Below, piece by piece: positions 21,491-42,437 of a DNA stretch of 64,000 nucleotides. Every line of letters begins with the position of its first letter. Position 1 is the stretch's first letter. The position numbers and the translations under genes are program-made. Location of the stretch: the NCBI RefSeq assembly GCF_003858635.1, contig NZ_RQJO01000011.1, positions 372,001-436,000 of the forward strand, given 5' to 3'. Origin of the DNA: Larkinella rosea (GTDB lineage: Bacteria > Bacteroidota > Bacteroidia > Cytophagales > Spirosomataceae). Below the pieces are notes generated by a model. It was not told the DNA's origin. It worked only from the letters and a program-made list of their open reading frames with translations, and did no database searches.

Positions 21491-22471
21491 TTAAGCAACC
21501 CTGGCGGGAAGCTGACTGTTTTCATAAAAGGCCAGTTGAAGTAACAACGTACTGGCAATCTGCTCCAGTGTTTCCTGGGTGAGAAAGCCCTGGTGGGCAG
21601 TCAGAAGAGCCCTGGGATGGGAACGAAGCCGATTTAAATCGTCATCTTCGATCGGTTGAGTACTCCAGTCCCGGTGAAACCAGGCACTTTCCCGGTCATA
21701 GACGTCGGCTGCATAACCGGCGAGTTGCCGTTGGTCGAGGGCATCCAGAACCGCTTTCGTATCGACGATCTTACCCCGGCTGGTGTTGACCAGAATGGCC
21801 GTTGGCTTCATGATCGATAGGGCCTGTGAATCGATGAGCCGAGTCGTTCGGGACGTTAACGGGCAATGGAGCGAAACCACATCCGATTCGGCCAGTAGTT
21901 CGGGTAGCCAGACATATTTAATTCCCTCATTGATCAGCGCCGGATGAGGCTTAAGGTCATTGGCCAGCATCTGGCAACCAAACCCTTTCATGATTTGCAG
22001 GAATGCGTGACCGATATGTCCCGTGCCAATGACACCGATCGTCTTGCCGTGCAAATCGTTCCCGATCAAGCCATCCAGGGTAAAGTTCCCCGTTGTTACC
22101 CGCTCATGCGCCTGGGGCAAATGGCGAACCAGACTCATTAATAAAGCAACGGCATGCTCCGCTACCGAAAAAGGCGAATACCCCGGAATCCGGATTATCT
22201 CCAGATCAAGTTCTTCGGCCACGCGCCTATCTACGTTGTCCAAACCAACGCAACGCATGGCAATGACGGTTATTCCCCGCATTTTCAACAACCGCAAAAC
22301 CGGTTCGCTCAAATCGTCGTGGGCAAAAGCGCACACCGCCTGGTGACCAATGGCCTTCCCCACCGTGTTTTCGCTCAGCGGTTCTTCAATGAAGGTAATC
22401 TGATGATGGTTCTGGTAACGAATAAACCCCGGACGATCATAACTGGCAGTACTGAAAAAGGCGATTTTCAT
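21491..22471 (-). CDS. ldhA: D-2-hydroxyacid dehydrogenase, probably D-lactate dehydrogenase
   Basis: 326 aa from the ATG at 22471 (MKIAFFSTASYD); a start 21 nt upstream is possible but adds nothing typical. The NAD-binding Rossmann motif GVIGTGHIGHAF, the RxxGxxN-like segment MRCVGLDNVD, the catalytic-Arg loop NTSRGKIVDT and the catalytic His in TAHQGFLT are all visible. The IPGYSPFSVAEHAVAL segment is typical of the fermentative D-LDH subgroup, which reduces pyruvate to D-lactate and reoxidises NADH when respiration is limited. It is the last gene of a probable minus-strand operon with LOG, a membrane protein, a secreted protein and a PNPOx-like protein. The position at the edge of a stress island supports a low-oxygen role. 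Substrate preference is inferred from the family. Confidence 0.88.
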   Translation of the reverse strand: MKIAFFSTASYDRPGFIRYQNHHQITFIEEPLSENTVGKAIGHQAVCAFAHDDLSEPVLRLLKMRGITVIAMRCVGLDNVDRRVAEELDLEIIRIPGYSPFSVAEHAVALLMSLVRHLPQAHERVTTGNFTLDGLIGNDLHGKTIGVIGTGHIGHAFLQIMKGFGCQMLANDLKPHPALINEGIKYVWLPELLAESDVVSLHCPLTSRTTRLIDSQALSIMKPTAILVNTSRGKIVDTKAVLDALDQRQLAGYAADVYDRESAWFHRDWSTQPIEDDDLNRLRSHPRALLTAHQGFLTQETLEQIASTLLLQLAFYENSQLPARVA

Positions 22472-22559
22472 GGCAAGCGTGTTTAGGAGCATCTAAATTG
22501 CGCAGCTTTGTCTTGGACTGAAATGACCAGGCTCAGGTATTGATCTGATTTAAAGCCGG

Positions 22560-23330
22560 TTATATTTTTTCCAGTAACCACCAGAGCGGTCGGCGTCGCC
22601 GGATTACGCGAAAATTGCTTTCCACATACGTTCGGATGTGGGTCATGGCTTCATTGAGGTCGTCCGTCAATAAAACCAGTTTTAGATCCTGCTCACTGAT
22701 GGTTCCCGCCCGAATCATTTGGTGGAGATAATCCAGTAAGGGCTGGTAGTAGGCCCGGTCCATCAAAACCACCGGAAACCGCTGCAAAATACCGGTTTGT
22801 ACCAGTGTCAATGTTTCGAACAGCTCATCCATCGTCCCCCAGCCCCCCGGCATCACAACAAAGGCATAGGAGTACTTGACCAGCAGCACCTTGCGGACAA
22901 AGAAGAAATCAATGGTGACCTGTTTATGCAGATAGCCATTGGGTTTTTGTTCAAACGGCAGCCGGATGTTGCAACCCACTGACCGCCCTCCGGCTTCGAA
23001 TGCGCCCCGGTTGGCCGCTTCCATCAGGCCCGGCCCTCCGCCGGTCATCACGGTAAAACCCAGGTCAGAAACGGCGCGGCCAACCTGCTGGGCCAGCTGA
23101 TAATACCGATGAGATGCCTTAAACCGGGCTGAGCCAAATACCGTTATGCAGGGTCCCTCAAAATGCAATGCCCGAAACCCTTTTAGAAACTGCCAACCGA
23201 TTTGACCAATAAACCGCAGTTCTGACTGACGGCTTTTCGGACCTTCCAACGCCTGGGTCAGCACGGTATTGAGCAGGGGGCTTACGGACTTGGCGGTCGC
23301 TGGCGAAACACCTGACGGAACAGTTCGCAT
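22560..23330 (-). CDS. LOG family protein (lysine decarboxylase-like nucleosidase)
   Basis: 256 aa from the ATG at 23330, four bases after the stop of the upstream gene; a longer frame to 23423 would overlap that gene by about 90 bp and is less likely. Two signature motifs of the LOG family are present: GGGPGLMEAANRGA and PGGWGTMDELFE. Characterised members are phosphoribohydrolases that release free cytokinin-type bases from nucleoside monophosphates, or nucleotide 5'-monophosphate nucleosidases. 'Lysine decarboxylase' is a historical misnomer. The N-terminal 50 residues and a basic C-terminal tail are extra to the core. The physiological substrate here is unknown. The tight spacing suggests translation coupled to the membrane protein at 23335. 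Confidence 0.88.
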   Translation of the reverse strand: MRTVPSGVSPATAKSVSPLLNTVLTQALEGPKSRQSELRFIGQIGWQFLKGFRALHFEGPCITVFGSARFKASHRYYQLAQQVGRAVSDLGFTVMTGGGPGLMEAANRGAFEAGGRSVGCNIRLPFEQKPNGYLHKQVTIDFFFVRKVLLVKYSYAFVVMPGGWGTMDELFETLTLVQTGILQRFPVVLMDRAYYQPLLDYLHQMIRAGTISEQDLKLVLLTDDLNEAMTHIRTYVESNFRVIRRRRPLWWLLEKI

Positions 23331-23334
23331 AGCG

Positions 23335-23862
23335 TTAGGACTCGATTGGTGCAGGGCTCGCTGGTTTTCTCTTTTTTCCACTTCTTCGGATTTTGGCTGT
23401 TTCCCACAGATACGTACCGTCATGGAATTGCTGCAAACGGTAAAACGCGATGGCCATCAAAACGGTAGCTGGAAAGGCGGCATACCAGCCCAGCGGGGCG
23501 ATTGCCAGACCAAAGATCAACCCATCCCAGCAACCCAGGCGAAACAAATCGCCTTTGAGTGTCATCGTCAACGCGATCAGGGCCTGACTGGCGGCTATCA
23601 CCAGGATCATGGGTTTAATAATGGTGGCAAACGGGCCTAAAATAAACCATTTATACACGGGAATGGCCGTGTCGGCGTAATCCTGATACACCCAGGGAGC
23701 TTCCAAAGCCGTTGTGGCATTGAACCAGGCCGCCCAGCTAAACAGGAGCAGATAAAAAAGGCGGGTCAGGCGGGGCCAGTGTTTGCTGCTCCAGATCGTG
23801 GAGAGAAAGAGCAGATTGACGACCGTGTAAGTAGTCCAGAAAAGGGTTGGCGAAAAAAACAT
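23335..23862 (-). CDS. Membrane protein of unknown function
   Basis: 175 aa with about four hydrophobic helices: residues about 5-22, 32-50, 70-100 and 110-140. A basic, lysine- and arginine-rich C-terminus (KIRRSGKKRKPA) is probably cytoplasmic. I do not recognise the family. It lies 30 bp after a secreted-protein gene and 4 bp before the LOG gene, so it is almost certainly in that operon. Confidence 0.75.
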   Translation of the reverse strand: MFFSPTLFWTTYTVVNLLFLSTIWSSKHWPRLTRLFYLLLFSWAAWFNATTALEAPWVYQDYADTAIPVYKWFILGPFATIIKPMILVIAASQALIALTMTLKGDLFRLGCWDGLIFGLAIAPLGWYAAFPATVLMAIAFYRLQQFHDGTYLWETAKIRRSGKKRKPASPAPIES

Positions 23863-23892: not shown

Positions 23893-24579
23893 TTACTGTG
23901 CGTAATGAAAACCGCCCCCGCCAACCGTCAGCGTCACATAAAAGCCATTGAGGGCATATTCGGGTTTCACCTGGTTCGGCTGACCATCGGGAAGCTGCTG
24001 CCAGTGTGCTGATTTTGAACTGGCGACGTAACCGATCCGCAAGCCCAGCCAAAACCCCTTTGTCTCCTCCGGGCCGACGGATGGATCGGGCACCAGTAAG
24101 CGGTTTAGATGCAGCGAGAGATCGGTCGAATGGCTGGATAACACCGCAATATGCGGTTGGAAGCCGTCCTGATGAATGGTGATTAAGGAGGAGGATATTC
24201 CCTGTCCGATGGCCGAGTAACATACCCATCGACGGGTATCGAAAAGCACGTAGCCCAGCTTGATCTGTCCGATTCCCGCGGCCCGTTCCACCCGGGTTTG
24301 CTGAACGGAAATGCTGCGGGCCGTGAGGGCCGAAGCGCTGAGCCCGGCCATCAACCGGTTTCGGCGCAGCCAACCTTCCGCTCCGCTGTAAATAAAGTGG
24401 TCGTTGAGTGAGGGAAACCAGTCGGGGGCAAAGGTTCGGGCAACATTCCCTGATTTGGGCGCATTGAGATAACCCAGTTGAAAAAAGCCGAAACTCCCCC
24501 GCACCGACTGGGCGGGTGCAATAGTCTGGCATGCCAATAGCAAGGCCGCGGAAAAATAGAGTAAAGAAATCCGTCTCAT
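23893..24579 (-). CDS. Secreted or outer-membrane protein of unknown function
   Basis: 228 aa. The N-terminus (MRRISLLYFSAALLLACQTIAPAQ) is a signal peptide with a likely cut after APAQ; a Cys at 17 could alternatively be a lipobox. The body has alternating hydrophobic/aromatic strands (GSFGFFQLGY, GFWLGLRIGYVA, GFYVTLTVGGGGF) and ends in F-H-Y-A-Q, as in small outer-membrane beta-barrels. A competing frame of 242 codons over the same bases lacks these features. It sits in the middle of the operon between the PNPOx-like protein and the membrane protein. Confidence 0.72.
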   Translation of the reverse strand: MRRISLLYFSAALLLACQTIAPAQSVRGSFGFFQLGYLNAPKSGNVARTFAPDWFPSLNDHFIYSGAEGWLRRNRLMAGLSASALTARSISVQQTRVERAAGIGQIKLGYVLFDTRRWVCYSAIGQGISSSLITIHQDGFQPHIAVLSSHSTDLSLHLNRLLVPDPSVGPEETKGFWLGLRIGYVASSKSAHWQQLPDGQPNQVKPEYALNGFYVTLTVGGGGFHYAQ

Positions 24580-24687
24580 TCCGTTGGGTGTCAGGTGAAG
24601 ATATGCTCACGAAACGGGTATAAAACTGCGACTGAATGGGGAGAAGAAGTATGACAAATGTGGGTGGCTAACGTGATTATAGTCAGC

Positions 24688-25128
24688 TTATTGAGTATAG
24701 CAGCGACCCGATTTGCGGTGAATCTGGATGCGGTAAACCACCGGATACACGACGTGATGATCAGTGGGGGTAATTTCACCGGGATACCCCATTTTCTCCC
24801 CGGTAAAAACCGGGATTTTGCGGTGTTCCAGTAAATACAGGGCGTATTCCCGCTCGTCTCCGGTTAACTCCTGAAAGATTCCTTCAATCAGCACACTATG
24901 CCAGACACCGTCACGTATCATTTCGTCAATCTCAAAAGCGACGTGGGGATTTTTACGAAGGAGCTGGATCTTGGTGCCTTCGCGGGTCAGACCCAAAATG
25001 GCGTTTCCGTCATAATAATACATGACCGGTTCAATCAAAATTCGGTCATCGGCGGCACAACCAATGCGCCCAAAATACTGATTAACCAGCATGGAATCGA
25101 TGACTTCAGTCGTGAGTTCGGTTAACAT
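24688..25128 (-). CDS. Pyridoxamine 5'-phosphate oxidase-like flavin-binding protein
   Basis: 146 aa. The small split-barrel fold is suggested by GRIGCAADDRILIEPVMYYYDGNAILG at the front, the strand pattern NPHVAFEIDEM, and WHSVLIEGIF. Members bind FMN or F420 and include general stress proteins and nitroimidazole-resistance-like proteins. It is the first gene of the minus-strand operon that ends with the D-lactate dehydrogenase, and is divergent from Hsp20. Similar PNPOx-like proteins occur beside Usp and Hsp20 genes in stress regulons of other phyla. The exact reaction is unknown. Confidence 0.85.
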   Translation of the reverse strand: MLTELTTEVIDSMLVNQYFGRIGCAADDRILIEPVMYYYDGNAILGLTREGTKIQLLRKNPHVAFEIDEMIRDGVWHSVLIEGIFQELTGDEREYALYLLEHRKIPVFTGEKMGYPGEITPTDHHVVYPVVYRIQIHRKSGRCYTQ

Positions 25129-25387
25129 GATTTTGGAAAGCGGATGGATAAACCGCTCTCCAAAAATAGCTTCGCATTGGAGCGCGATCCATGTGTTTGG
25201 TCAGATCAACCTGTGATTTTGGTTGGTTACCGAACCTGGCCCACGAACAATGGTTGACAACAATTAGCTTCAGAGTTGAGGTTGATCACGGATTACTCCC
25301 GGGCCACTGCACAATTTTGCTGAAGTAGCAGCTGGTCTACTGTTAGCCAGCCTTGTCGTCTTATGTTCCACTAAACAACAGGTAGCC
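25129..25387. promoter_or_regulatory. Divergent promoter region between the PNPOx-like operon and Hsp20
   Basis: 259 bp with starts on both sides. Two FNR-like half-matches are visible (TTGACAACAATTA near 25253 and TTGATCACGGATTA near 25281), each with one good half-site only. They are weaker than the palindromes elsewhere in the island, and I do not claim them as sites. Confidence 0.4.
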
Positions 25388-25807
25388 ATGAAACCGGCAC
25401 TTCGAAATTCGCTTTTGACCACCTTCTCCAATCTGTTTGATGATGAATTCTTCAGCAATGCGGTGTTCCGCGATCCGGGCTTTCCGGCTGTAAATGTCCG
25501 CGAAGAAGCGGATCAGTTTCAACTGGAAGTCATTGCACCGGGTTTAAAAAAGGAGGATTTTAAACTCGCCCTGAATGACCGTATGCTGACCATTTCGGCC
25601 GAGAACACGACCGAATCGGACGAAAAGAACGTTTCGTATCGTCGGAAAGAATACAGCTACCAGTCTTTTCAGCGCACGTTTGATTTGCCTGAAAACATCG
25701 AAGCAGACAGCGTCCAGGCTACGTATGTCGATGGTGTTTTGAAAATTGGCCTGAAGAAAAAGGCACTTCAGCCGAAACCCGCGCCCAAACTAATTACGAT
25801 TGAGTAA
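25388..25807 (+). CDS. Hsp20/alpha-crystallin family small heat-shock protein
   Basis: 139 aa with the usual plan: a short N-terminal arm rich in Phe (TTFSNLFDDEFF), an alpha-crystallin domain from about 35 to 125 (FPAVNVREEADQF, APGLKKEDF, DGVLKIGLKKK) and a C-terminal I-x-I anchor (LITIE) for oligomer assembly. Small heat-shock proteins hold unfolding proteins for later refolding by ATP-dependent chaperones. The gene is monocistronic, with a terminator at 25820. It sits in an island rich in universal stress proteins, much as hspX does in the mycobacterial dormancy regulon. Confidence 0.95.
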   Translation: MKPALRNSLLTTFSNLFDDEFFSNAVFRDPGFPAVNVREEADQFQLEVIAPGLKKEDFKLALNDRMLTISAENTTESDEKNVSYRRKEYSYQSFQRTFDLPENIEADSVQATYVDGVLKIGLKKKALQPKPAPKLITIE

Positions 25808-25865: not shown

Positions 25866-26996
25866 TCACAGTTTGACGCTTTTCCAGCCATAGACATCGG
25901 GGTAAAAATCCAATGAATTAGCCAAACCCGGTTCAATCGTTTGGTAGGTAATGACGACGGGGACGGGTCTGGGCAGGGGAAGGGTTCGGGAAGGAAGGCT
26001 GACCTGGCGGTTTTCCAAAAAGTCCGGCGAAAAAAAAGAAGAGTGCAGGAGCAGATTCGCCAGTTCCACCGGTTTGGCTACCCGAATGCATCCGTGACTC
26101 AAAAACCGGCTGGTGTGGTTAAATAACTCCCGGTGGTTGGTGTCGTGCAGATAAATATCGAATGGACTGTTAACATCAAATTTCATGATGCCCAGTGCGT
26201 TATCACAACCGGTCGACTGGCGCAGTCGGTAGGGGAAATTGCGGGCTGAAAGCACCTGCCAATTGATGGATTCCGGATGGACGATACGCCCTTTCGTATC
26301 CAGTACCTGCATTTTCAGGGCATCCAGTACCCCCGCTGGGTTTCGCCTGATTTTCGGTAGTAGTTCCTTGACGGCAATCGAATGGGGGACATTCCAATAC
26401 GGATAGGTAATGATCCGGGTTATGACGGCACCAAAAAGAGGAGTTGGCGTGTGACTTGTACCGACAATGACCCGCGACAGTAGTTCCTGATTTCCCTGGC
26501 GATCCAGCACCCGCAGCGTAGCGGATGGAATATTGACCACCACCATCCGGTCCGAAGCCAGGCGGTTCAGCCAGCGATACTGATTCAGCGCCGATCGAAT
26601 GTCGGCCAGGTGCGGCAGCGAATCTTTACTGAACGAAACCAGCGAATCCAGGCTGGCGCGCAGTCGGCGGTACGGCTCAAAAACCGGCTCCAGTGATCCT
26701 AAAAGAGCGGCCCAGTCCGGATCTTTTGCCCGAATCCGTTCGACTACGCGGTTGACACCCGCCGAATCGATCCGTTCGGGTAATTGCCAGAAACTTAGTC
26801 GTTCGGGACGGCTGCCGTAGGCCAGCTCAAAGGCAAACCGGCTAATGGTGGCGCTGTCCTGATTCACACCCGCCGTATCCAGGCCGGATCGATAAAGAAA
26901 CTGGCTCCATTCCGATAAAGATTGTCCAGCGCTACCCGGAACACGGGCGATCTGGATCAATAGCGTCGCCAAAAGCATTTTCAGAATACGATTCAT
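25866..26996 (-). CDS. L,D-transpeptidase (YkuD domain, YcbB-like)
   Basis: 376 aa with a signal peptide (about 1-24, PGSAGQ). An N-terminal region (about 25-150) without clear motifs precedes the catalytic domain. That domain has VVNIPSATLRVLDRQG, TPTPLF, and the active-site motif SHGCIRV with nucleophile Cys at 303. The HDTN motif just before it and a lid-like segment (about 190-260) fit YcbB-type enzymes. These form 3-3 crosslinks in peptidoglycan or attach proteins to it, often during stress or stationary phase. The gene is divergent from the small-protein/Usp operon, and the shared 196-bp promoter region carries an FNR-like palindrome at 27079-27090. Confidence 0.92.
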   Translation of the reverse strand: MNRILKMLLATLLIQIARVPGSAGQSLSEWSQFLYRSGLDTAGVNQDSATISRFAFELAYGSRPERLSFWQLPERIDSAGVNRVVERIRAKDPDWAALLGSLEPVFEPYRRLRASLDSLVSFSKDSLPHLADIRSALNQYRWLNRLASDRMVVVNIPSATLRVLDRQGNQELLSRVIVGTSHTPTPLFGAVITRIITYPYWNVPHSIAVKELLPKIRRNPAGVLDALKMQVLDTKGRIVHPESINWQVLSARNFPYRLRQSTGCDNALGIMKFDVNSPFDIYLHDTNHRELFNHTSRFLSHGCIRVAKPVELANLLLHSSFFSPDFLENRQVSLPSRTLPLPRPVPVVITYQTIEPGLANSLDFYPDVYGWKSVKL

Positions 26997-27078: not shown

Positions 27079-27090
27079 TGATTTAGATCA
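27079..27090. promoter_or_regulatory. FNR/CRP-like palindrome TGATTTAGATCA
   Basis: An exact TGAT-N4-ATCA palindrome in the divergent region between the L,D-transpeptidase (start 26996) and the small gene at 27193. It is the reverse complement of the site at 42735-42746 in all 12 bases. Confidence 0.55.
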
Positions 27091-27192
27091 TTTTTTAGTC
27101 CGATGAATATCAGTGCCTTGTCAGCGAATCCTCATTTATTTTTGCTCTGCTTTCTTCGTAAGCAGCTTACTCCTAACTCCAAAACCACAGCC

Positions 27193-27438
27193 ATGACTTT
27201 CGAACCGACCCGTCATCAATTAGCTTTCGTGCTCCCCGAATCTTTCCGGAAAGCCGAAGTGATCTTTCAGAAACGATTAGCCCAGAGTGAAGACGTTCGC
27301 CTGGTGGTTCAGCCTAACCATCGTCCTCGACAGGTGGTCTCCACCCAGGCGCTAAGCAGCGGAATCTGGCACGTCATTTTAAACTGGTGGGATGGCAGGG
27401 GACAGTACTGGGCCGAAAAGGATATCGTGATTCATTAA
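27193..27438 (+). CDS. Small protein of unknown function at the head of a Usp operon
   Basis: 81 aa from the ATG at 27193. An upstream in-frame ATG at 27103 would add 30 residues resembling a weak hydrophobic leader, but it sits close to the FNR-like site and is less likely. No signal peptide is present in the short form. Visible features are VLPESFRKAEVIFQKRL and a Trp-rich end (ILNWWDGRGQYWAEKDI). I do not recognise the family. It lies 33 bp upstream of a universal stress protein gene, so it is probably co-transcribed with it. Confidence 0.65.
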   Translation: MTFEPTRHQLAFVLPESFRKAEVIFQKRLAQSEDVRLVVQPNHRPRQVVSTQALSSGIWHVILNWWDGRGQYWAEKDIVIH

Positions 27439-27471: not shown

Positions 27472-28290
27472 ATGAAAACCATCGTTTTAGCCACTGACTT
27501 TTCAAAAAGTGCCAAACCGGCCTCCGATTTTGCGCTTCAACTCGCGGAACAACTAAAAGCCCGGCTGGTGCTGTTACACGTGTATCATCACCCGCTGCGG
27601 CTCCCGCCTTTACAGGCGGTGTTTACCCCCCTGGAGGAGAAAAACAAAGTAAGCTCCCGGCGAAAGCTTTACCGGCTGCGCGACCAGCTGAAAAAACGAT
27701 GCGGGGATGTACCCATTTCCATCCTCAACCGGGAAGGGGCTACCCTGGACACCATCAAAGCGGTCGTTAAAGAGCAAAAGGCGGAGTTGCTGGTGATGGG
27801 AACGGCCGGGGCCAACTCGCCGGGAGCGTATTATTTCGGTAGTCAGGCCACGGAGATGATTCTACGCACGCCGGTACCCCTGCTGCTGGTGCCCCCAGCG
27901 GCTCATTTTGTGCCTTTTAAACACATAGTCGTGGCCATTGACCTTGAAAAACCGGTGAATGCGCTGGCGCTGGATGGCGTACTCCGGTTTTCCAACCGCT
28001 TCGATGCCTTTTTGAACGTTCTCTGTGTCAGTAATCATCCCGCCGATCCGGTTGTCCAACAGGCTTCCGAAGCCATCCGGGATTTGCTCGCTCATTGCCC
28101 GCACACGTTGTCCATCGTTAAAGGAGACGATTTGACCGAAACAATTTTGCAGTATGCCACTGAAAACCGGGCGGATCTGATTATGATGCTGCCCAACGCC
28201 CATAACCAATTCCTGTTTTCAGTGTTGGAGAGCAACACCCAGCAAATGGCACGGCAATCCGATGTCCCGGTACTGGCCATCGTTTCCTGA
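27472..28290 (+). CDS. Universal stress protein, tandem UspA domains
   Basis: 272 aa. The first UspA domain (about 1-142) starts MKTIVLATDFSKSA and has an ATP-loop-like segment GTAGANSPGAYYFGSQ ending in VPLLLVPP. The second (about 148-272) starts FKHIVVAIDLEKP and ends VPVLAIVS, but lacks a clear G-x2-G-x9-G[ST] loop, so it may not bind nucleotide. Usp proteins help cells survive starvation, hypoxia and oxidative stress. This gene and its neighbours at 27193, 28305 and 28694 are closely spaced on one strand and probably form an operon. Confidence 0.93.
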   Translation: MKTIVLATDFSKSAKPASDFALQLAEQLKARLVLLHVYHHPLRLPPLQAVFTPLEEKNKVSSRRKLYRLRDQLKKRCGDVPISILNREGATLDTIKAVVKEQKAELLVMGTAGANSPGAYYFGSQATEMILRTPVPLLLVPPAAHFVPFKHIVVAIDLEKPVNALALDGVLRFSNRFDAFLNVLCVSNHPADPVVQQASEAIRDLLAHCPHTLSIVKGDDLTETILQYATENRADLIMMLPNAHNQFLFSVLESNTQQMARQSDVPVLAIVS

Positions 28291-28304: not shown

Positions 28305-28673
28305 ATGAAACCGTTCGTTATCACCTCCCTGTTGAGCTGTCGACAGCTCAATCAGCATTGGCAGCGCCAGTTCCCTTTTTTAAAACTGCTGGTCTATTCG
28401 CTTTCGGATCGCCCGGTGGCCGGAAACGAAATCGAACGGCCACTGAACGAACTGAATTCGCACCTTGGTGCGCTACGCTGGTTGCGGGTGGATCCGGGCA
28501 TGTCCGTCAATGCGTTTGAAATTGCCTTTCACTATACGTTCGGTATGCGGGTCGAAGTGCTGCGCAAACTGGGGTACACCTGGGATGATACGGAATACAC
28601 CAAATCCTGGACATTGCAGGAGCAAAACCGAAAGGGAGCAGCGATTTCGACGAATTACGCCCTTCACATCTAA
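28305..28673 (+). CDS. Protein of unknown function between two Usp genes
   Basis: 122 aa, starting 14 bp after the upstream Usp stop and ending 20 bp before the next Usp start. No signal peptide or membrane helix is present. Visible features are a Cys at 11, a hydrophilic middle, and a Thr/Trp/Asp-rich segment LGYTWDDTEYTKSWTLQEQ. Competing overlapping frames on both strands lack a good context. I do not recognise the family. The operon position suggests a part in the same stress response. Confidence 0.7.
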   Translation: MKPFVITSLLSCRQLNQHWQRQFPFLKLLVYSLSDRPVAGNEIERPLNELNSHLGALRWLRVDPGMSVNAFEIAFHYTFGMRVEVLRKLGYTWDDTEYTKSWTLQEQNRKGAAISTNYALHI

Positions 28674-28693
28674 TACCCTGAATCCGATTGTCC

Positions 28694-29566
28694 ATGAAAA
28701 ATATTCTGTTGCTGACCGACTTTTCGGAGGCTTCCCAAAAAGCGATCCGGTTCGCTCAAACGCTGTTTGAAGAAATTCCGGCAGCGTTCGACCTGTTGCA
28801 CGTCTATGCCGTTGATCCGGGAGTCATGTACGGTTTGCAAATGGAAGAGGCCGAACAGAATGTCACCCGAAGGCTGCACCAATTTTTGGCGGAACTACCG
28901 ATCCAGCCCGTACCGGAGTATCAATCCTACCAGTGTTTGACAGCTGCCGGTAATCCGATTCGCGCGGTGGAGGCTGCTCTGGAGCAGAAACCGTACGCGT
29001 ATGTGGTGGTCGGGGCCAGTGGTGCCGGATTGATGCCGGTGTTGGGAAGTGTGGCAACCGGACTGATCCGGCAGGTTAAAACGAATGTGCTGGTGGTGCC
29101 CCAACATACGATTATCCGGCCCATTCGGGAAGTCGTTCTGGCAACGGATTACCGTTCGCTGAAACAGATGAGTTGTCTGCAACCGCTTGAAGAACTAGGT
29201 CAGTTAAAACCGATTCGACTGACCGGGCTATCGATTGTGGATAACCAGACACCCCTGTTGATTGGTGAAGACTTTGAGCAGTACCGGCAGCAAATGGCTC
29301 ACCGGTTTGATTCGGTCGAAACCGGTGCGTATCAGGTATTAGACGAAGAAGTAGAACACGGAATCAATGCGTATTTAACCACTCATTCCGTGGATTTACT
29401 CGTAACGGTCCCGCACCGAAAAACCTTGCTGGATACGGTCTACAACCGAAGCCTGACGCGTCGACTGGCCTATAAACCGCGTGTTCCATTGCTGGCCCTG
29501 TATGACCCTGAACCGGTCGGACAATCGCCGGAAAATAAAGAATACAGGTGGGATTTTCCGTACTAA
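28694..29566 (+). CDS. Universal stress protein, tandem UspA domains
   Basis: 290 aa from the ATG at 28694 (MKNILLLTDFSEAS); a TTG two codons earlier is less likely. The first domain (about 1-140) has a nucleotide-loop-like segment GASGAGLMPVLGSVATGL before TNVLVVPQ. The second domain (about 145-275) is more divergent and lacks the Gly loop. The C-terminal 20 residues are polar. It is the last gene of the small-protein/Usp/unknown/Usp run. Confidence 0.92.
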   Translation: MKNILLLTDFSEASQKAIRFAQTLFEEIPAAFDLLHVYAVDPGVMYGLQMEEAEQNVTRRLHQFLAELPIQPVPEYQSYQCLTAAGNPIRAVEAALEQKPYAYVVVGASGAGLMPVLGSVATGLIRQVKTNVLVVPQHTIIRPIREVVLATDYRSLKQMSCLQPLEELGQLKPIRLTGLSIVDNQTPLLIGEDFEQYRQQMAHRFDSVETGAYQVLDEEVEHGINAYLTTHSVDLLVTVPHRKTLLDTVYNRSLTRRLAYKPRVPLLALYDPEPVGQSPENKEYRWDFPY

Positions 29567-29656: not shown

Positions 29657-30097
29657 ATGCAATGGAAGCACTTTCATCGTTCGGTGGCGGGCCTTTCAGG
29701 ATTATTGCTGGTAAGCTTACCGTGGGCGTGCCTGGACGACCATCGGCCACCAACGGCCAACGAACTACTCCTTATCAATTGCCGGTCGGGCTGGATGCCG
29801 GTGGGTGTATATTCCCAGGGAGACCGGGTGGGAGATGCCGCACCAGCTTGTTACCGGATGATTTTTCAAAGCAATGGCCAACTGATCTTTAACCGGCAGC
29901 AATGTAGCAGTCCGGACACGGCAACCGTTGTGGCCGAATGGTCATTAACATCGAATAGCCTTTCACTGCCCTACCGGCCGGGTAATATTTACGGGCCACC
30001 CACCGGAGGTCTGGTTGAAGAATTGACCAGCTCTTCCCTGAAATTCAGCTACCGGGGTGGTCCTGATAAAATCACTGAAGTCTGGGCCTGCCCTTAA
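29657..30097 (+). CDS. Small exported protein, possibly a lipoprotein
   Basis: 146 aa from the ATG at 29657, which places a hydrophobic segment (GLSGLLLVSLPWAC) directly after a basic start. The Cys ending LPWAC could be lipidated, but the -3 position is Pro, so the lipobox is not canonical. Four further Cys residues are present (INCRSGW, ACYRM, QQCSS, WACP). I do not recognise the family; small lipocalin-like domains in Bacteroidota have a similar look. Its stop overlaps the stop of the convergent gene at 30094 by 4 bp. Confidence 0.65.
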   Translation: MQWKHFHRSVAGLSGLLLVSLPWACLDDHRPPTANELLLINCRSGWMPVGVYSQGDRVGDAAPACYRMIFQSNGQLIFNRQQCSSPDTATVVAEWSLTSNSLSLPYRPGNIYGPPTGGLVEELTSSSLKFSYRGGPDKITEVWACP

Positions 30098-30431: not shown

Positions 30432-30440
30432 CCGGTCTGT

Positions 30441-32894: not shown

Positions 32895-32906
32895 TGATGG
32901 CAATCA
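32895..32906. promoter_or_regulatory. FNR/CRP-like palindrome TGATGGCAATCA, upstream of ppsA
   Basis: Exact TGAT-N4-ATCA, centred 63 bp upstream of the ppsA start codon. A second exact copy is centred 22 bp away, two helical turns, on the same DNA face. Confidence 0.55.
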
Positions 32907-32916
32907 TTTAAAGTAC

Positions 32917-32928
32917 TGATAGTCATCA
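32917..32928. promoter_or_regulatory. FNR/CRP-like palindrome TGATAGTCATCA, upstream of ppsA
   Basis: Second exact TGAT-N4-ATCA in the ppsA/Usp divergent region, 22 bp centre to centre from the first. A third, one-mismatch site (TGACAATAATCA) lies at 33006-33017, nearer the Usp gene. Confidence 0.55.
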
Positions 32929-33005: not shown

Positions 33006-33017
33006 TGACAATAATCA
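33006..33017. promoter_or_regulatory. FNR/CRP-like site TGACAATAATCA, one mismatch, upstream of Usp
   Basis: One base from TGAT-N4-ATCA, 79 bp before the Usp start at 33097. It is listed because of the two exact copies in the same divergent region. Confidence 0.38.
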
Positions 33018-33953: not shown

Positions 33954-34706
33954 ATGAAGGACTTACAAGGAAAAGTGGCACTGGTGACCGGAGCCGCTTC
34001 GGGGATTGGAGAAGCCATCGCGTTGCTGTATGGTCAACACGGAGCCCGTGTCATGCTCTCCGATGTCAATGAAGCAAGGGGCCAACAGGTTGCCGATCAG
34101 GTCGTGGCCGAAGGCGGTATCGCCCGGTTTTTCAAAGCCGATGTCGGCGATCCAACGCAGTGTCAGCAACTCATTGAGGAAACCGTTTCCGCATTTGGTG
34201 GCCTCGATATGGCCTGCAACAATGCCGGTATCGGTGGCGAATTGAACCAGACCGGGGATTATTCGCTGGAAGGCTGGCAGAAGATCATTAATATCAATCT
34301 CAATAGCGTATTCTACTGCCTGAAGTACGAACTGGAAGCCATGCTGGCCCAAAATCGTACCGGGTCGATCATTAATATGGCTTCCATTCTGGGTCAGGTC
34401 GGTACGGCGATGTCGCCGGGGTACGTGGCCGCCAAACATGGCGTGGTGGGTTTGACCCAAACCTCAGCCATTGAATACGCGCCGAAAGGAATCCGCATCA
34501 ATGCCGTCGGACCGGCCTATATCGACACGCCCCTGTTAGGCGTATTACCGGCCGACGTAAAGGCATCGCTGATTGGACTTCATCCCATTGGGCGGCTGGG
34601 CCGGGCCGAAGAAGTGGCCGAACTGGTCATCTGGCTCTCGTCGGAAAAAGCTTCGTTTGTGACAGGTTCGTATTATCCCATCGACGGGGGGTACCTGGCC
34701 CGGTAA
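33954..34706 (+). CDS. Short-chain dehydrogenase/reductase
   Basis: 250 aa from the ATG at 33954. A TTG 24 nt upstream is less likely. Classical SDR motifs: TGAASGIGEA for NAD(P) binding, NNAG after beta-4, Ser in INMASILG, and the catalytic YVAAK, with a C-terminal GSYYPIDGGYLAR. Asp in LSDVN after beta-2 favours NAD(H) over NADP(H). The substrate cannot be told from sequence; close relatives are annotated as 3-oxoacyl-ACP reductase or glucose dehydrogenase without proof. It follows a Usp gene by 29 bp. Confidence 0.92.
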   Translation: MKDLQGKVALVTGAASGIGEAIALLYGQHGARVMLSDVNEARGQQVADQVVAEGGIARFFKADVGDPTQCQQLIEETVSAFGGLDMACNNAGIGGELNQTGDYSLEGWQKIININLNSVFYCLKYELEAMLAQNRTGSIINMASILGQVGTAMSPGYVAAKHGVVGLTQTSAIEYAPKGIRINAVGPAYIDTPLLGVLPADVKASLIGLHPIGRLGRAEEVAELVIWLSSEKASFVTGSYYPIDGGYLAR

Positions 34707-34786
34707 TCGGGCAGCGTACGCCAAAAGCTTGATAAAGCGACTGAACAAGGTATTTTAGCGTTGACTACCGTAACTGAATGGGCAAT

Positions 34787-34798
34787 TGATCGGGATAA
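34787..34798. promoter_or_regulatory. FNR/CRP-like site TGATCGGGATAA, one mismatch, upstream of pfkB
   Basis: One base from TGAT-N4-ATCA, 59 bp before the pfkB start. A -7-like box TACGTTTT (34827-34834, 7 of 8 to TAnnTTTG) follows at a spacing similar to that seen before the ATPase at 39939. Confidence 0.35.
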
Positions 34799-34857
34799 AA
34801 CTCCAGACAGTTGCCCACTTTTTTAGTACGTTTTACCACCCGGAAATCAAAATTGCC

Positions 34858-35844
34858 ATGATCATTACCCTGACCCTGAATCCCTCGGTTGACATCAGTA
34901 CAACGATTGACCATCTGGTGCCGGAACAGAAACTGCGGTGCGCAGCAGCCCGCTATGATCCGGGCGGAGGGGGCATTAATGTTTCCCGGGCCATTCACCG
35001 CCTGGGTGGAAAATCACGGGCGGTCTTTCCGGTTGGCGGAGCAACCGGTTCACTACTGGAACAACTGGTAGCCGAGCAGCAAATTGATTTCCAAACCGTC
35101 CCGATGGCGGGCTGGACCCGGCAGAGTTTTGTGGTGACGGAAACCTCGACCCGGCAACAATTCCGGTTTGGATTGCCCGGGCCAGCCTGGTCTATGGACG
35201 AACGTGAGCTTTTTCTAAACACGGTATTGACCTTTCCCAAGCCCATTGACTATGTCGTCATCAGTGGTAGTTTTCCGCCCGGCCTTCCGGCGGATTATTG
35301 CGCAGTCATCGCCCGAATAGTCAGGCAACGGGGTGCCCGGTTGATTCTCGACACCTCCGGTGAACCTTTGCGGATGGCCGTTCAGGAAGGCGCATTTTTG
35401 CTCAAACCTAATTTGGGGGAACTAGCTTCGCTGGTTGGGGTGGATAAACTGGAGCTGGACGAAGTGGAGGAAGCCGCCCGCTCGGTCATCCAGCGGGGCT
35501 GGTGTGAAGTGGTGGTCCTCTCACTGGGGCCGGCGGGCGCTTTGCTGGTAGCCAAAACCGGCCATGCCGATCAGCGCATTGAACGTTTCCGGGTTCCGGC
35601 CCCGACGGTTAAAAAGCAGAGTACGGTGGGCGCCGGTGACAGCATGGTCGGCGGAATGATTTACGCATTGTCGCAGGGCAAATCCTACGAAGAGATGCTG
35701 CGGTTCGGTGTAGCCTGTGGCACGGCCGCCACCATGAATCCCGGCACCGAACTATTTCATAAAGACGATGTGGAACGACTGCTGAACTGGATCAATCAAT
35801 CCGGAAAGAAGGTTTTTTTACCCGTTGCCGACGGGATCAATTAG
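34858..35844 (+). CDS. pfkB: PfkB-type 6-phosphofructokinase (Pfk-2 like)
   Basis: 328 aa from the ATG at 34858; the open frame upstream to 34786 covers the promoter. Ribokinase-fold family: the substrate motif PGGGGINVSRAI, then WTRQSFVV, GSFPPGLP, KPNLGEL, and the anion-hole motif STVGAGDSMVGGM with the catalytic Asp. These segments match E. coli Pfk-2 well, better than 1-phosphofructokinase (FruK), so fructose-6-phosphate is the likely substrate. In mycobacteria a pfkB gene belongs to the DosR dormancy regulon. Here it sits between an SDR gene and a Mg-type P-ATPase, with its own candidate promoter. Confidence 0.9.
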   Translation: MIITLTLNPSVDISTTIDHLVPEQKLRCAAARYDPGGGGINVSRAIHRLGGKSRAVFPVGGATGSLLEQLVAEQQIDFQTVPMAGWTRQSFVVTETSTRQQFRFGLPGPAWSMDERELFLNTVLTFPKPIDYVVISGSFPPGLPADYCAVIARIVRQRGARLILDTSGEPLRMAVQEGAFLLKPNLGELASLVGVDKLELDEVEEAARSVIQRGWCEVVVLSLGPAGALLVAKTGHADQRIERFRVPAPTVKKQSTVGAGDSMVGGMIYALSQGKSYEEMLRFGVACGTAATMNPGTELFHKDDVERLLNWINQSGKKVFLPVADGIN

Positions 35845-38439: not shown

Positions 38440-38515
38440 AAAATCGAGCAAGGGCTACGTCCGCGTTCAGTGCATCTGAACGTTCAAATCTAGCGAAGTG
38501 CATGGTGAACGAAAT

Positions 38516-38527
38516 TGATACCTGTCA
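38516..38527. promoter_or_regulatory. FNR/CRP-like site TGATACCTGTCA, one mismatch, between mgtA and the gene at 38624
   Basis: One base away from TGAT-N4-ATCA, with an extra T before it (TTGAT). It is centred about 82 bp upstream of the mgtA start and about 102 bp before the divergent gene. Confidence 0.38.
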
Positions 38528-38623: not shown

Positions 38624-39793
38624 ATGGGTACGATTCGCATCTTGTTTGCCAGTATTCTCGGTTTTCATGGTCTGATCCACCTGACCGGTTTTGTCAGGGG
38701 TCGGTATTTGACAAAGGCCGGTTTACTCCCGGAAACGACCATCATCCCCTTATCGGAACCGGAGACGAAAGCCGTTGGCGTTTTCTGGCTGGTCACGGGG
38801 CTGTTCTTTTTAACGGCGGCAGGCGGTTTTCTAACCGGCATGGCCCGGTGGTGGCTGGTTGCGTTTGGCGCGATCCTTTTTTCACAGCTGTTGATCCTGC
38901 TTCATTGGCAAGCGGCTAAAACCGGCACTGTTATGAACCTGATTGCTTTGATTATTAGTTTGCCAGCTTACGCAGACTGGAAACTCACGATCAGGATACA
39001 GGCTGAAATTCAGGGACTTATGAGTCAGGTCAATACTGAAAAGCCGTCAGTCATTACGATTCAGCAAGTAGAAACATTGCCGCCGGTTGTTCGAAAATGG
39101 CTCATCAGCGCCCAGGTACCCGGAAAAGAACGCATTCAAACCGTTCAGTTGAAACAACAGGGTCAGATGCGCACCAAGGCTACCGGGAACTGGATGCCCG
39201 TTGAAGCGCAGCAGTGTTTTACCACCGACAAGCCCGGTTTTATCTGGAGCGCCCGCATTAAGGCAGCTCCGCTTTTTTATCTGGCGGGACGGGATAAGTA
39301 CGATCAAGGACATGGCAATATGCTGATTAAGGCACTGTCCTTCTGGCCCATTGCGAATGCGAGCGGAAAAGAAATCGATCAGGGAACGATGCTGCGGTTT
39401 TTGGCCGAACTGGTCTGGTTTCCAACGGCGGCATTAAACCCGTACATCCACTGGGAAGAACTCAGTGCCACCACCGCCCGGGCCACCATGAATTACGGAA
39501 AAGTCACCGCATCCGGCGTTTTTACATTCACCCCTGAGGGCGATGTGATTCGTTTCGTCGCTCAGCGCTACGGCGAATTTGAAGGAACTTACCGGCTGGA
39601 AACCTGGTCAATAGCTATGAAAAACCACCAAAAATTAGCCGGTATTCGAATTCCGGTGGAGGCATCAGTTACCTGGAAATTAAAAACCGGTGATTTTACG
39701 TGGTATGTGTTAAGGATAACGGAAATACATTATAATGAACGGTGCCATTTTACTTCGAGTAGCTCCGGATCAACACCGGCCTCCTGGCATTGA
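38624..39793 (+). CDS. Membrane-anchored DUF6544-like protein
   Basis: 389 aa. Residues about 1-120 contain four hydrophobic helices (IRILFASILGFHGLIHL, FWLVTGLFFLTAAGGFL, WLVAFGAILFSQLLIL, MNLIALIISLPAYA). The rest is a soluble domain with PPVVRKWLISAQVPGKERI, TDKPGFIWSARIKAAPLFYL and FLAELVWFPTAALNP, which I recognise as the DUF6544 (older DUF6920) type. The function is unknown. It is divergent from mgtA. Confidence 0.8.
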   Translation: MGTIRILFASILGFHGLIHLTGFVRGRYLTKAGLLPETTIIPLSEPETKAVGVFWLVTGLFFLTAAGGFLTGMARWWLVAFGAILFSQLLILLHWQAAKTGTVMNLIALIISLPAYADWKLTIRIQAEIQGLMSQVNTEKPSVITIQQVETLPPVVRKWLISAQVPGKERIQTVQLKQQGQMRTKATGNWMPVEAQQCFTTDKPGFIWSARIKAAPLFYLAGRDKYDQGHGNMLIKALSFWPIANASGKEIDQGTMLRFLAELVWFPTAALNPYIHWEELSATTARATMNYGKVTASGVFTFTPEGDVIRFVAQRYGEFEGTYRLETWSIAMKNHQKLAGIRIPVEASVTWKLKTGDFTWYVLRITEIHYNERCHFTSSSSGSTPASWH

Positions 39794-39852: not shown

Positions 39853-39864
39853 TGATTAATATCA
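39853..39864. promoter_or_regulatory. FNR/CRP-like palindrome TGATTAATATCA before the cation ATPase
   Basis: Exact TGAT-N4-ATCA. A perfect Bacteroidota -7 box (TAAATTTG) starts 30.5 bp downstream of its centre. That would place the site at roughly -43 from a start point near 39902, the class II activator position. Confidence 0.6.
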
Positions 39865-39888: not shown

Positions 39889-39896
39889 TAAATTTG
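39889..39896 (+). promoter_or_regulatory. -7 promoter box TAAATTTG
   Basis: Full match to TAnnTTTG, 43 bp before the ATG of the ATPase at 39939. There is no good -33 TTTG at the usual distance; an activator-dependent promoter would explain that. Confidence 0.55.
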
Positions 39897-39938
39897 GACC
39901 TGGAAAGTGCATTTTGGGGATATTTAACTCCAGTCCTC

Positions 39939-42437
39939 ATGGCTAACACCCGGCTACCCGATTTTTCCTTCCCCTTACTAGGCTTGACAACGAGCGAGGT
40001 TGAAACGGCCCGCCAACGATTTGGCCGGAATGAAACAGAATCAACGGATTCTGCCTCCCTGTTAAAGCTGGTGGTTGAAGTGGTTTCGGAACCCATGTTT
40101 ATTCTGCTGGCGGTGGCCAGTCTGATCTACGTCCTGCTGAGGCAATGGGAGGAAGGCCTGTTATTAGCCCTGGCGATGCTGTTGGTAGCGGGAATTTCCC
40201 TCTTCCAAACCGTGCGGAGCAACCGGGCTCTCCAGGCGCTTCGAGCGTTATCTCAAAACCGGGTTTCGGTACTTCGCAATGGGGAACTTTTGCCGGTTCC
40301 TATTGAGGAAATAGTGGTGGGCGACTTGATCTGGGTGTCAGAAGGGCAAACGGTTCCGGCGGACGGCATCCTTGTAAAAGCCAACGACTGCTCGGTCGAT
40401 GAAGCCATTTTAACGGGAGAGTCGGTTCCGGTGGCCAAAACCGCTCCAGCCATCGACCGCTTCCTGGCCGGTACGATGCTCACCTCCGGAAGTGCCTATG
40501 TGCGCGTAACCTCAGTCGGAACGCAAACCGAAGTTGGAAAGCTAGGGCACACGCTTCAGTCCATTAAAGTAGAGAAAACCCCTTTGCAACGACAGATTAA
40601 CGGGTTCGTGCAGCGGATGGCCTGGGTGGGATTTGGCGCATTCGCCCTGGTCTGGGGGATTAATTATAGCCATTCCGGTGACTGGGCCACCTCCCTGTTG
40701 CTGGGCTTAACCATTGCCATGTCGGTATTGCCTGAAGAAATTCCTGTCGCCTTTAGTAGTTTTATGGCACTGGGCGCTGCCCGCATGATCCGGCTGGGCG
40801 TATTGACCCGGCAACCTCAGACGGTAGAAAGCCTGGGATCGGCTTCGGTCATCTGCACCGACAAAACCGGCACCATCACCCAGGAAGGAATGACAGTGGT
40901 TTCCCTGTATGATGGAAAAACCCGCGAATTAGTGCCCTTGAATGCAACTTTATCCGACTCCGTAAAGGATGTCCTGGTTTTTGCGCGTTGGGCCAGCGAA
41001 CCAACTCCGTTCGACCCCATGGAACGGGCTATCGAGTCGGCTTATCAAACGCATTGTAGCCAGGAAATAGCAGCGATCCAACACGAATATCCGCTGGATG
41101 GAACGCCCCCCATGATGACCCACGTCTATGGCACCGGTCCGGTCCGCGTGGCGGGGAAAGGCGCGGTGGAACGGATTGTCAGGATTTGTCATTTGTCAGA
41201 AGTCGAAAAGGCTGACATCCTTCGGCAGGCTACACGTCTGGCTAAGCAAGGTTACCGGGTGCTGGGAATTGCCGGGAGCGAGTGGCCGGACATTGACTTT
41301 CCCGTTAATCAGGATGATTTTCAGTGGGTATTCAAAGGGATGATCGCGTTGGAAAACCCACCTAAAGCCAATGCCCGGGCCGTTCTTGACCAATTTCATC
41401 AGGCTGGGATTACCGTTAAAATGCTCACCGGCGATTCGCCGGAAACCGCTCAGGCTATTGCCAGTCAGGTCGCAATACCGAATTCCGACCATTACCTGAC
41501 GGGTCAGCAGGTGATGGCTTTATCGGAAACGGAACTGCAAATGGAAGTGAAGCGGGTCACTATATTTGCCCGGATGTTTCCGGATGCCAAACTCCGGGTT
41601 ATCCGGGCACTAAAAGCCAATGGCGAAGTGGTTGCGATGACGGGAGACGGCGTCAATGATGGTCCTGCGCTCAAAGCCGCCCACATTGGGGTAGCCATGG
41701 GTCGTCGCGGAACGGAAGTCGCCAAACAGGCTGCGGCTCTGGTTTTGGTGGATGATGATCTGAACGCCATGGTCGGTGCCATCGCCCAGGGCCGACGCAT
41801 TTATCAGAACCTGAAGCGGGCTGTTGGTTACATTGTCTCCATTCATATTCCCATTATTTTAACCGTGACGGTGCCTTTACTTTTTGGCTGGCGGTACGTG
41901 AATCTCTTTAGCCCGATTCACATTATTTTTCTGGAGTTAGTGATGGGGCCAACCAGCTCGATTGCCTTCGAAAATGAACCCGCCGAACCCGGTTTGATGC
42001 GTCAACGACCCCGCCGATTTACGGATACTTTTTTCACCGCGGGCGAGCTGGGTTTGAACATGTTGCAGGGGGTACTCATTGCGCTGGTTGTTTTAGGTAT
42101 CTATTATCAGGCCATGCTGGCTGGTGCTGCCATTGACAAGGTGCGAACAATGACCTTTGTAACGCTGGTCCTGAGCAACGTTTGGTTGACTCTGGTAAAT
42201 AGGTCGAAACGGGAATCCGTGTTATCGACCATCCGCCGACCCAATTCCTTGTTTTGGCTGATGCTTTTCCTGACCCTGTTGATGCTGATGCTGACCCTGG
42301 TGGTTCCGACGGTGCGCCGAGTGGTTCAATTTACGGAAGTGACAGAAAAAGAAATGCTCCACTGCTTTTATTGGTCACTTTCCGGTGTGGTTTGGATTGA
42401 AGGGTATAAATACTGGAAACGTGTACCGCTAAAATAA
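39939..42437 (+). CDS. Cation-translocating P-type ATPase (P2, calcium-ATPase-like)
   Basis: 832 aa from the ATG at 39939; a TTG at 39894 would lie inside the promoter's -7 box. Hallmarks: LTGESVPV, ICTDKTGTITQEG with the phosphorylated Asp, KGAVERIVRI, and GDGVNDGPALKAAHIGVAMG. Helix 4 reads SVLPEEIPVAF, the bacterial variant of the PEGLP/PEEFP ion-site motif. The fold and length fit P2-type pumps related to SERCA and to mycobacterial CtpF, a DosR-regulated ATPase. The transported ion is probably Ca2+ or another divalent cation; this cannot be settled from sequence alone. Confidence 0.93.
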   Translation: MANTRLPDFSFPLLGLTTSEVETARQRFGRNETESTDSASLLKLVVEVVSEPMFILLAVASLIYVLLRQWEEGLLLALAMLLVAGISLFQTVRSNRALQALRALSQNRVSVLRNGELLPVPIEEIVVGDLIWVSEGQTVPADGILVKANDCSVDEAILTGESVPVAKTAPAIDRFLAGTMLTSGSAYVRVTSVGTQTEVGKLGHTLQSIKVEKTPLQRQINGFVQRMAWVGFGAFALVWGINYSHSGDWATSLLLGLTIAMSVLPEEIPVAFSSFMALGAARMIRLGVLTRQPQTVESLGSASVICTDKTGTITQEGMTVVSLYDGKTRELVPLNATLSDSVKDVLVFARWASEPTPFDPMERAIESAYQTHCSQEIAAIQHEYPLDGTPPMMTHVYGTGPVRVAGKGAVERIVRICHLSEVEKADILRQATRLAKQGYRVLGIAGSEWPDIDFPVNQDDFQWVFKGMIALENPPKANARAVLDQFHQAGITVKMLTGDSPETAQAIASQVAIPNSDHYLTGQQVMALSETELQMEVKRVTIFARMFPDAKLRVIRALKANGEVVAMTGDGVNDGPALKAAHIGVAMGRRGTEVAKQAAALVLVDDDLNAMVGAIAQGRRIYQNLKRAVGYIVSIHIPIILTVTVPLLFGWRYVNLFSPIHIIFLELVMGPTSSIAFENEPAEPGLMRQRPRRFTDTFFTAGELGLNMLQGVLIALVVLGIYYQAMLAGAAIDKVRTMTFVTLVLSNVWLTLVNRSKRESVLSTIRRPNSLFWLMLFLTLLMLMLTLVVPTVRRVVQFTEVTEKEMLHCFYWSLSGVVWIEGYKYWKRVPLK

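Follow-up and report, generated by a model that had tools for sequence, protein, structure and literature searches.

Here we describe an island of stress and survival genes in the genome of the bacterium Larkinella rosea (phylum Bacteroidota), together with the promoter boxes that its genes share and a regulator that may read them. The sequence analysed, which we call the window, is a stretch of 64,000 nucleotides (contig NZ_RQJO01000011.1, positions 372,001 to 436,000), and the island occupies a 21-kilobase (kb) span within it, from position 21491 to 42437. Judged from its sequence, the island is real, probably co-regulated and recurring, with a function that is likely connected with low oxygen. 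Common control is supported because the boxes are shared at a fixed promoter spacing. Throughout, labels beginning with L denote loci and those beginning with G denote genomes, and several island genes are called by their window coordinate.

Genes of the island

The families named in an initial annotation of this DNA were all found where it had placed them, using Pfam and NCBIfam, with one detail to be corrected: it had described three universal stress proteins (Usp) as tandem-domain proteins, and two of them are, while in the second, at 28688-29566, Pfam recognises one Usp domain and leaves the second half unrecognised. The genes and open reading frames (ORFs) are listed below.

21491..22492, reverse strand: 2-hydroxyacid dehydrogenase, D-lactate dehydrogenase-like (D-LDH; Pfam), the last gene of the run 24579-21491
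22560..23423, reverse: LOG-like TIGR00730 Rossmann protein (Pfam, NCBIfam)
23335..23862, reverse: gene 23335, hydrophobic, a membrane protein by eye; no Pfam or NCBIfam match
23893..24579, reverse: gene 23893, signal-peptide-like start by eye; no Pfam or NCBIfam match
24688..25128, reverse: PNPOx-like protein (Pyridox_ox_2; Pfam)
25388..25807, forward: Hsp20 (HSP20; Pfam)
25866..26996, reverse: L,D-transpeptidase (LDT; YkuD; Pfam)
27193..27438, forward: gene 27193, predicted soluble FixH/CcoH-like domain of 81 amino acids (FixH profile; no Pfam or NCBIfam match)
27472..28290, forward: Usp, two domains (Pfam)
28305..28673, forward: gene 28305, putative new small family, 122 amino acids; no Pfam family
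28688..29566, forward: Usp, one domain recognised (Pfam)
29657..30097, forward: gene 29657, secreted-looking by eye; window copy without a box
ORF 30441-32903, reverse, likely start 32837: phosphoenolpyruvate (PEP) synthase, TIGR01418 above cut-off
ORF 32959-33924, forward, likely start 33097: Usp, two domains (Pfam)
ORF 33930-34706, forward, likely start 33954: short-chain dehydrogenase/reductase (SDR) oxidoreductase (Pfam)
ORF 34786-35844, forward, likely start 34858: PfkB-family hexose kinase, TIGR03168 above cut-off
ORF 35896-38451, reverse, likely start 38438: MgtA-like P-type ATPase, TIGR01524 above cut-off
38624..39793, forward: gene 38624, DUF6544/DUF6920 protein (Pfam)
ORF 39894-42437, forward, likely start 39939: P-type cation ATPase, Ca-type-like, below the Ca-family cut-offs
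42862..45723, forward: Ig-domain protein with a Por-type C-terminal match (Por_Secre_tail, 25.2 bits; cut-off 27), outside the 21-kb span

The whole 8.17-megabase genome holds seven Usp domain matches in four genes, three of which lie in the island, and three Hsp20 matches, one of them in the island.

Fnr-type boxes before island genes

Boxes were sought with the consensus core of Fnr, TGATnnnnATCA, in the 260 base pairs (bp) before each start, either exact or with at most one mismatch. With one mismatch allowed, a box stands at 11 of 12 island gene or operon starts (some boxes being shared by divergent genes). The same rule gives 20 of 172 for random starts in the host, 37 of 189 for those in relatives and 3 of 12 in the flanking parts of the window. 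Exact boxes precede 5 of the 12 island starts, none of the 172 random host starts and one of the 189 in relatives. Counted between genes, exact boxes number five in 3191 bp of the island, one in 51892 bp of 18 random 20-kb stretches and none in 4092 bp of the flanks; another gene mask gave five in 3425 bp against two in 52219 bp. Two exact boxes in tandem, 22 bp apart, occur at a single site in the whole genome, and this site is inside the island.

24674..24685: box, one mismatch, upstream of the run 24579-21491
25277..25288: box, one mismatch, common to PNPOx and Hsp20; 29.5 bp before CAATTTTG on the Hsp20 side
27079..27090: exact box, 52.5 bp before TATTTTTG (forward) and TACTTTGG (reverse)
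27101..27112: box, one mismatch, 22 bp from the box at 27079..27090; 30.5 bp before TATTTTTG
32895..32928: tandem exact boxes 22 bp apart, between PEP synthase and Usp
33006..33017: box, one mismatch, 51.5 bp before TTGTTTTG of the Usp gene
34787..34798: box, one mismatch, upstream of PfkB; no −7-like element at a preferred distance
38516..38527: box, one mismatch (exact in the congener G239), 29.5 bp before TAGATTTG (reverse) and 52.5 bp before TAAATTAG (forward)
39853..39864: exact box, 30.5 bp before TAAATTTG
42735..42746: exact box, 51.5 bp before TACTTTTG, upstream of 42862

The exact box before TACTTTTG makes the Ig-domain protein at 42862..45723 a possible extra member of the regulon, which may thus include a protein that is secreted or placed on the cell surface. 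A plain genome count of TTGATnnnnATCA (80 forward, 99 reverse) was dropped in favour of the intergenic counts, since it does not separate matches inside genes and is therefore uninformative.

Promoter spacing

Measured from the first T of a TAnnTTTG-like element, the box centre at most promoters of the window lies 29.5-30.5 or 51.5-52.5 bp upstream. In the available passages of an earlier study (PMC9723704), the −7 element of Bacteroidota (sigma-A) lies at −12 to −5, so that the box centres would fall near −41.5 and −63.5. The distances 29.5 and 51.5 were first seen in the window and tested elsewhere afterwards, by counting pairs in which box and −7 element had at most one mismatch each and stood at either distance, give or take 1 bp. 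In the island, 10 of 16 pairs stand at the preferred distances (p=3e-8). Around gene 28305 the count is 52 of 183 pairs at 16 loci, with 13.7 expected (p=2.6e-17); three of these loci come from one genus (L129-L131) and three were reached via Hsp20 (L049, L080, L113), with L132, L143-L145 and duplicates excluded. Around gene 27193 it rises to 72 of 154 pairs at 18 loci, with 11.6 expected (p=2e-39), and the distances peak at 51.5 and 29.5, with a third peak at 73.5. Random host stretches gave 6 of 50 pairs (3.75 expected), other Hsp20 loci gave 37 of 417 (31.3 expected), and seven control palindromes, at 97 loci, gave none at the preferred distances. Both the tandem pair and the box lying between the ATPase gene and the DUF6544 gene are preserved in the congener G239.

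A composite of box and TAnnTTTG at 21-47 bp occurs nine times in the host genome, three times in the island, and five of the other six matches are within ORFs. Class-wide, the histogram is that of a sample, 141 of 150 listed places, nine rows of the G804:C29 repeat array having been dropped; 20 places stand at 29.5 and 11 at 51.5, with 4.5 expected at each (p=1.6e-9). The array itself (G804:C29:327-1628) is a regular repeat with TTGATAAACATCA and TATCTTTG that matched the composite pattern and looks CRISPR-like by eye.

Recurrence in relatives

Short homologues of gene 27193 served as anchors for 18 loci in 17 genomes of the family, which were compared with 38 random loci, 18 from the host and 20 from the relatives with gene 28305, none of them from the 17 genomes. 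Usp is present at 15 of the 18 loci, LDT at 11, D-LDH at 6, and PNPOx and PfkB at 5 each, and all five are absent from the 38 random loci; a more sensitive profile found Usp at one of the 20 control loci of relatives. LOG and genes 28305, 23335 and 23893 each occur at two of the 18 loci and at none of the 38, which is not significant, and gene 29657 occurs at one against none. Gene 23335 recurs in L249 and L251, gene 23893 in L249 and L257, and a LOG-like gene also in L049, L136, L137, L248 and L249. Among these loci L249 unites Usps, LDT, LOG, 23335, 23893 and D-LDH with a box, FixH/CcoG-like genes and the regulator and kinase described below, and L140, from another family, combines PNPOx, two P-type ATPases, two copies of 28305, PEP synthase and Usps. 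The core gene set and the box geometry recur in other genera and families.

Within the genus the island is patchy: G239 keeps the part from PEP synthase to DUF6544, G250 keeps Usp-SDR and G227 Usp-PfkB, the SDR stands beside Usp in both G239 and G250, and the stretches of G205 that were examined hold one other Usp and none of the remaining island genes. The closest named relative among the best 80 Hsp20 loci is Larkinella sp. C7 (80% identity). Hsp20 was also tried as an anchor and rejected, because Usp occurs in 5 and 28305 in 3 (L049, L080, L113) of those best 80 loci, which makes it a poor marker.

A candidate regulator

Near gene 28305 lies a gene of about 350 amino acids in which REC, cNMP-binding and HTH_Crp domains are fused (REC-Crp), and this response regulator is the likely reader of the boxes. 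It is found within the same 20-kb locus as 28305 at 12 of 16 loci, compared with 1 of 20 control loci. The receiver motif CD(I/V) is kept in the REC-Crp proteins read, and the four-cysteine cluster of the Fnr type is absent from 12 of them, which have one to three cysteines each. Candidate partner kinases carry PAS and HisKA domains. The host has three REC-Crp genes (L164, L165 and L166), two of them with a full adjacent PAS kinase, and upstream of the L164 pair stand two one-mismatch boxes 22 bp apart. Small ORFs that look thioredoxin-like by eye lie near kinase/REC-Crp pairs or pieces of the island (L164:12655-13086, L165:12163-12513, L049:3138-3476, L225:4354-4692).

Across 395 Bacteroidota genomes, tandem boxes occur in 25 and their reversed control in one. 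REC-Crp is present in at least 19 of the 25, against at least 37 of the 370 others (p=3.6e-13). There are 37 tandem sites in total, 36 of them listed and used, and 12 of the 36 lie within 20 kb of a REC-Crp gene, far above a chance level that assumes 1.5 copies per 4.5 megabases. When one tandem locus is taken per genome, all 25 are between ORFs according to our gene calls, and eight of them, the window included, precede an island family: Hsp20 in three cases, and 28305, LOG with Usp, Usp, PNPOx, and PEP synthase with Usp in the others. Behind the remaining sites are, by eye, HemA, a FixL-like kinase, a Crp-type protein, a hydrogenase and a hibernation-factor-like protein, along with several genes without an evident link. 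At L170, L172, L174, L175 and L185 the proteins after the tandem boxes are, again by eye, of release-factor-like, ribosome-hibernation-like, nitroreductase, hydrogenase and ATP-cone types.

Oxygen is the signal that we infer as the best candidate, and a likely one. The kinase adjoining REC-Crp at L080 has a PAS domain of the FixL type (1.1e-28 to FixL 1d06), a kinase that looks FixL-like by eye stands behind the tandem boxes of L178, and gene 28305 adjoins CcoN-like genes at L134, L136 and L138. In some relatives the boxes or the regulator lie beside cbb3/FixGHIS, HemN, HemA (by eye) and FixL-type kinases. What stands of the low-oxygen role put forward in the initial annotation is this association with cbb3/FixGHIS, HemN and FixL-type kinase neighbours. 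In Flavobacterium psychrophilum, cbb3 and heme synthesis go up when oxygen is limiting (PMC9723704), according to a report whose available passages do not name the box.

Unknown genes and flanks

Gene 27193 matches a profile of three FixH proteins at 8.8e-9 (one-sequence search) and has homologues in 37 of 81 genomes of the family, in both short and FixH-length forms, and neither Pfam nor NCBIfam gave a match. Its 81-amino-acid product starts after the predicted −7 element and lacks the N-terminal membrane anchor of FixH; by sequence, it is a soluble FixH-like domain.

Gene 28305 matched no Pfam family and is found in 12 of the 395 genomes of the phylum. Its profile had also given f48 hits in four further genomes, bringing the number to 16, and all four hits were set aside; two of these, L143 and L144, resemble MazG by eye. 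The AlphaFold2 (AF2) model is confident, with a pLDDT of 88, and a fold search with it returned no matches at E<=0.001, the top ranks being ubiquitin-like with a TM score of about 0.26, which is not interpretable. On sequence grounds we take 28305 to be a new small family that is tied to the regulator. At four loci an AAA_33 protein (L049:11970-13580; also L129, L130 and L131), which resembles Rv2004c of the DosR regulon, shares the locus with 28305.

A homologue of gene 29657 found in L049 is preceded by an exact box that stands 51.5 bp before TACTTTTG. Gene 38624 has a box upstream, and its recurrence is at the level of the genus, the congener G239 being the one other place where it was seen among the loci examined.

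The flanks of the island are apparently unrelated to it: on the left lie large ORFs and a gene for a hybrid two-component regulator, and on the right, besides the protein with the Por-type C-terminal match, there are a beta-lactamase-family protein and more large ORFs. Five large ORFs of the left flank (1838-16844) look alike by eye, and in the right flank, between 48592 and 62315, a small ORF comes first, then four proteins resembling one another and then a further large ORF.

Interpretation

We hold with good confidence that the stretch is a modular regulon for survival under low oxygen or energy stress, gathered in one place and read by a PAS kinase and REC-Crp. In the mechanism that we propose, falling oxygen or respiratory flux would lead the PAS histidine kinase to phosphorylate REC-Crp, a single protein filling the roles of both FixJ and FixK. 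Phosphorylated REC-Crp would then dimerise, bind the boxes and recruit RNA polymerase, after which Hsp20 would protect proteins, PEP synthase, PfkB and the D-LDH-like enzyme would rewire carbon flow, the P-type ATPases would adjust ions, LDT would remodel peptidoglycan, and the Usps would keep the non-growing cells alive. A wider claim, which we favour with noticeably less assurance, is that this is a phylum-wide dormancy or low-oxygen regulon of Bacteroidota in which PAS kinases (of the FixL type in some lineages) and REC-Crp would act on 22-bp-phased Fnr-type boxes (−41.5, −63.5, −85.5) and on largely uncharacterised effectors, among them the soluble FixH-like protein, LDT and 28305; it would amount to a counterpart of DosRS that evolved independently and whose regulator unites FixJ and FixK.

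Several observations weigh against this interpretation. At the preferred distances, random stretches of relatives are themselves slightly enriched (11 of 71 pairs, 5.3 expected, p=0.016). The p-values of the geometry assume independent, evenly spread pairs and overstate the significance, because two boxes of a pair have one −7 element in common and several loci come from one genus. The PfkB box has no well-placed −7 element, the −7 elements on the 24579, PNPOx and PEP synthase sides are poor, and the window copy of gene 29657 has no box in the 260 bp upstream. Recurrence at the 18 loci is weak for Hsp20 and PEP synthase (one locus each, against none of the 38 random loci), the P-type ATPases (two against one) and the SDR (one against seven), none of these differences being significant, and DUF6544 (38624) is found at none of the 18. 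The co-occurrence in relatives that the initial annotation anticipated is borne out for Usp, LDT, D-LDH, PNPOx and PfkB, and not for SDR, the ATPases, Hsp20, PEP synthase, LOG, 28305, 23335, 23893 and 38624. All three REC-Crp genes of the host lie outside the window, and L165 with one box and L166 with none lack a box pair of the kind seen at L164. In 6 of the 25 tandem-box genomes, stand-alone Crp/Fnr relatives are the only ones among the matches listed, and about two thirds of the 25 tandem loci precede genes outside the island families. The PAS domain of the L164 kinase of the host is closer to that of a multi-sensor kinase (10jx, 1.7e-10) than to DosP (about 5e-9) or FixL (6e-8), which makes direct oxygen sensing in the host uncertain.

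Those six genomes imply that another Fnr-like protein could read the boxes, in which case the island would be an ordinary Fnr/Crp regulon under a stand-alone regulator. In two of the six such a protein lies 78 or 757 bp from the box, and the host itself has two stand-alone Crp-like proteins (L011 and L012). We regard this as unlikely, though it is the strongest of the alternatives, since REC-Crp is repeatedly near boxes and 28305/Usp loci, the L164 pair of the host carries paired boxes, and the recognition helices of the two stand-alone proteins (REVISR and RVVISR) differ, by sequence only, from the TE(S/T)(L/M)IR of REC-Crp. A rather improbable possibility is that the island answers carbon or energy starvation or general stress and not oxygen, with the Fnr-like box as a signal of carbon status. 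PEP synthase, PfkB and Usp fit such a role, as does the nearness of the L164 PAS domain to 10jx (ligand unchecked) over the heme PAS domains of FixL and DosP; the cbb3/FixGHIS, HemN, HemA and FixL-type neighbours in some relatives and the response of F. psychrophilum to low oxygen speak against it.

Chance or loose clustering of common stress genes, with no control in common, agrees with the frequency of SDRs and P-type ATPases, whose recurrence is not significant, and with the 75 of 80 Hsp20 loci that lack Usp. For the core set it is contradicted by box frequency, by spacing and by the recurrence of Usp, LDT, D-LDH, PNPOx and PfkB, and we consider it very improbable. More remote still is the transfer of a true DosR regulon from Actinobacteria, which would explain the similar gene content: with at most three mismatches, the DosR box occurs 25 times in the window against 26.0 expected, the candidate regulators are REC-Crp and PAS kinases, and the best 80 Hsp20 loci are labelled as Bacteroidota.

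If the regulon is as we propose, a box code with a fixed spacing to the −7 element of the phylum itself would allow it to be predicted in many genomes from their sequence and put directly to the test. A set like that of DosR (Usp, Hsp20, PfkB, ion pumps) would then seem to have been assembled under a different regulator, which raises the question of what its genes have in common for survival, and roles that can be tested follow for L,D-transpeptidation in hypoxia and for two families of unknown function. A literature search, mostly at the level of abstracts, found no paper on this regulon, on a REC-Crp oxygen regulator in Bacteroidota or on how these bacteria enter low-oxygen, non-growing states through such a regulon.

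Comparison with known systems

DosR (DevR) of Mycobacterium tuberculosis is a NarL-type regulator with GAF heme kinases, and CtpF belongs to its regulon. The island resembles that regulon in its Usp, Hsp20, PfkB and cation ATPase content and in two-component control; in the available parts of the sources, the categories of the DosR regulon include RafH, nitroreductases and PfkB (PMC5309233), and the regulon has ten Usps (PMC6127331). It differs in phylum, in the addition of LDT, PEP synthase, D-LDH-like and FixH-like genes, and in its candidate regulators, which are REC+cNMP+HTH_Crp proteins with PAS+HisKA kinases, no genome-wide search for a DosR orthologue having been made. The island is thus like DosR in content and presumed purpose, yet it is not DosR, because the DosR box is at chance and the regulator is different. 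The functional counterpart of DosR that the initial annotation had seen survives in gene content, and the tests for the DosR box and a NarL-type regulator failed.

Such an island has been compared with DosR before, and the nearer precedent is the lxa locus of Burkholderia cenocepacia. As described in the accessible part of its report, this is a 50-gene low-oxygen cluster with six Usps, an alpha-crystallin and a phosphofructokinase, already likened to DosR and with Anr/FixK-type control proposed (PMC6127331); in that system FixL, FixJ and a FixK/Anr-type protein exist as distinct proteins, whereas the island's candidate has REC and Crp in one protein. The gene set is partly shared, and the box spacing of the island fits the −7 element of Bacteroidota.

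Activators of the Fnr/Anr/FixK type act from −41.5 and −63.5, and their regulons share with the island the TGATnnnnATCA core at about these positions and cbb3, HemN and Usp as neighbours or targets; unlike Fnr, REC-Crp is a response regulator and has no four-cysteine cluster. The FixL-FixJ-FixK system of rhizobia is alike in the FixL-type PAS domain of the L080 kinase and in joining a response regulator and a Crp-type activator in one pathway, but here receiver and Crp are fused, there is no separate FixJ/FixK step, and the targets are survival genes. What sets the island apart from lxa and DosR is its fused candidate regulator, the geometry of its boxes and its effectors.

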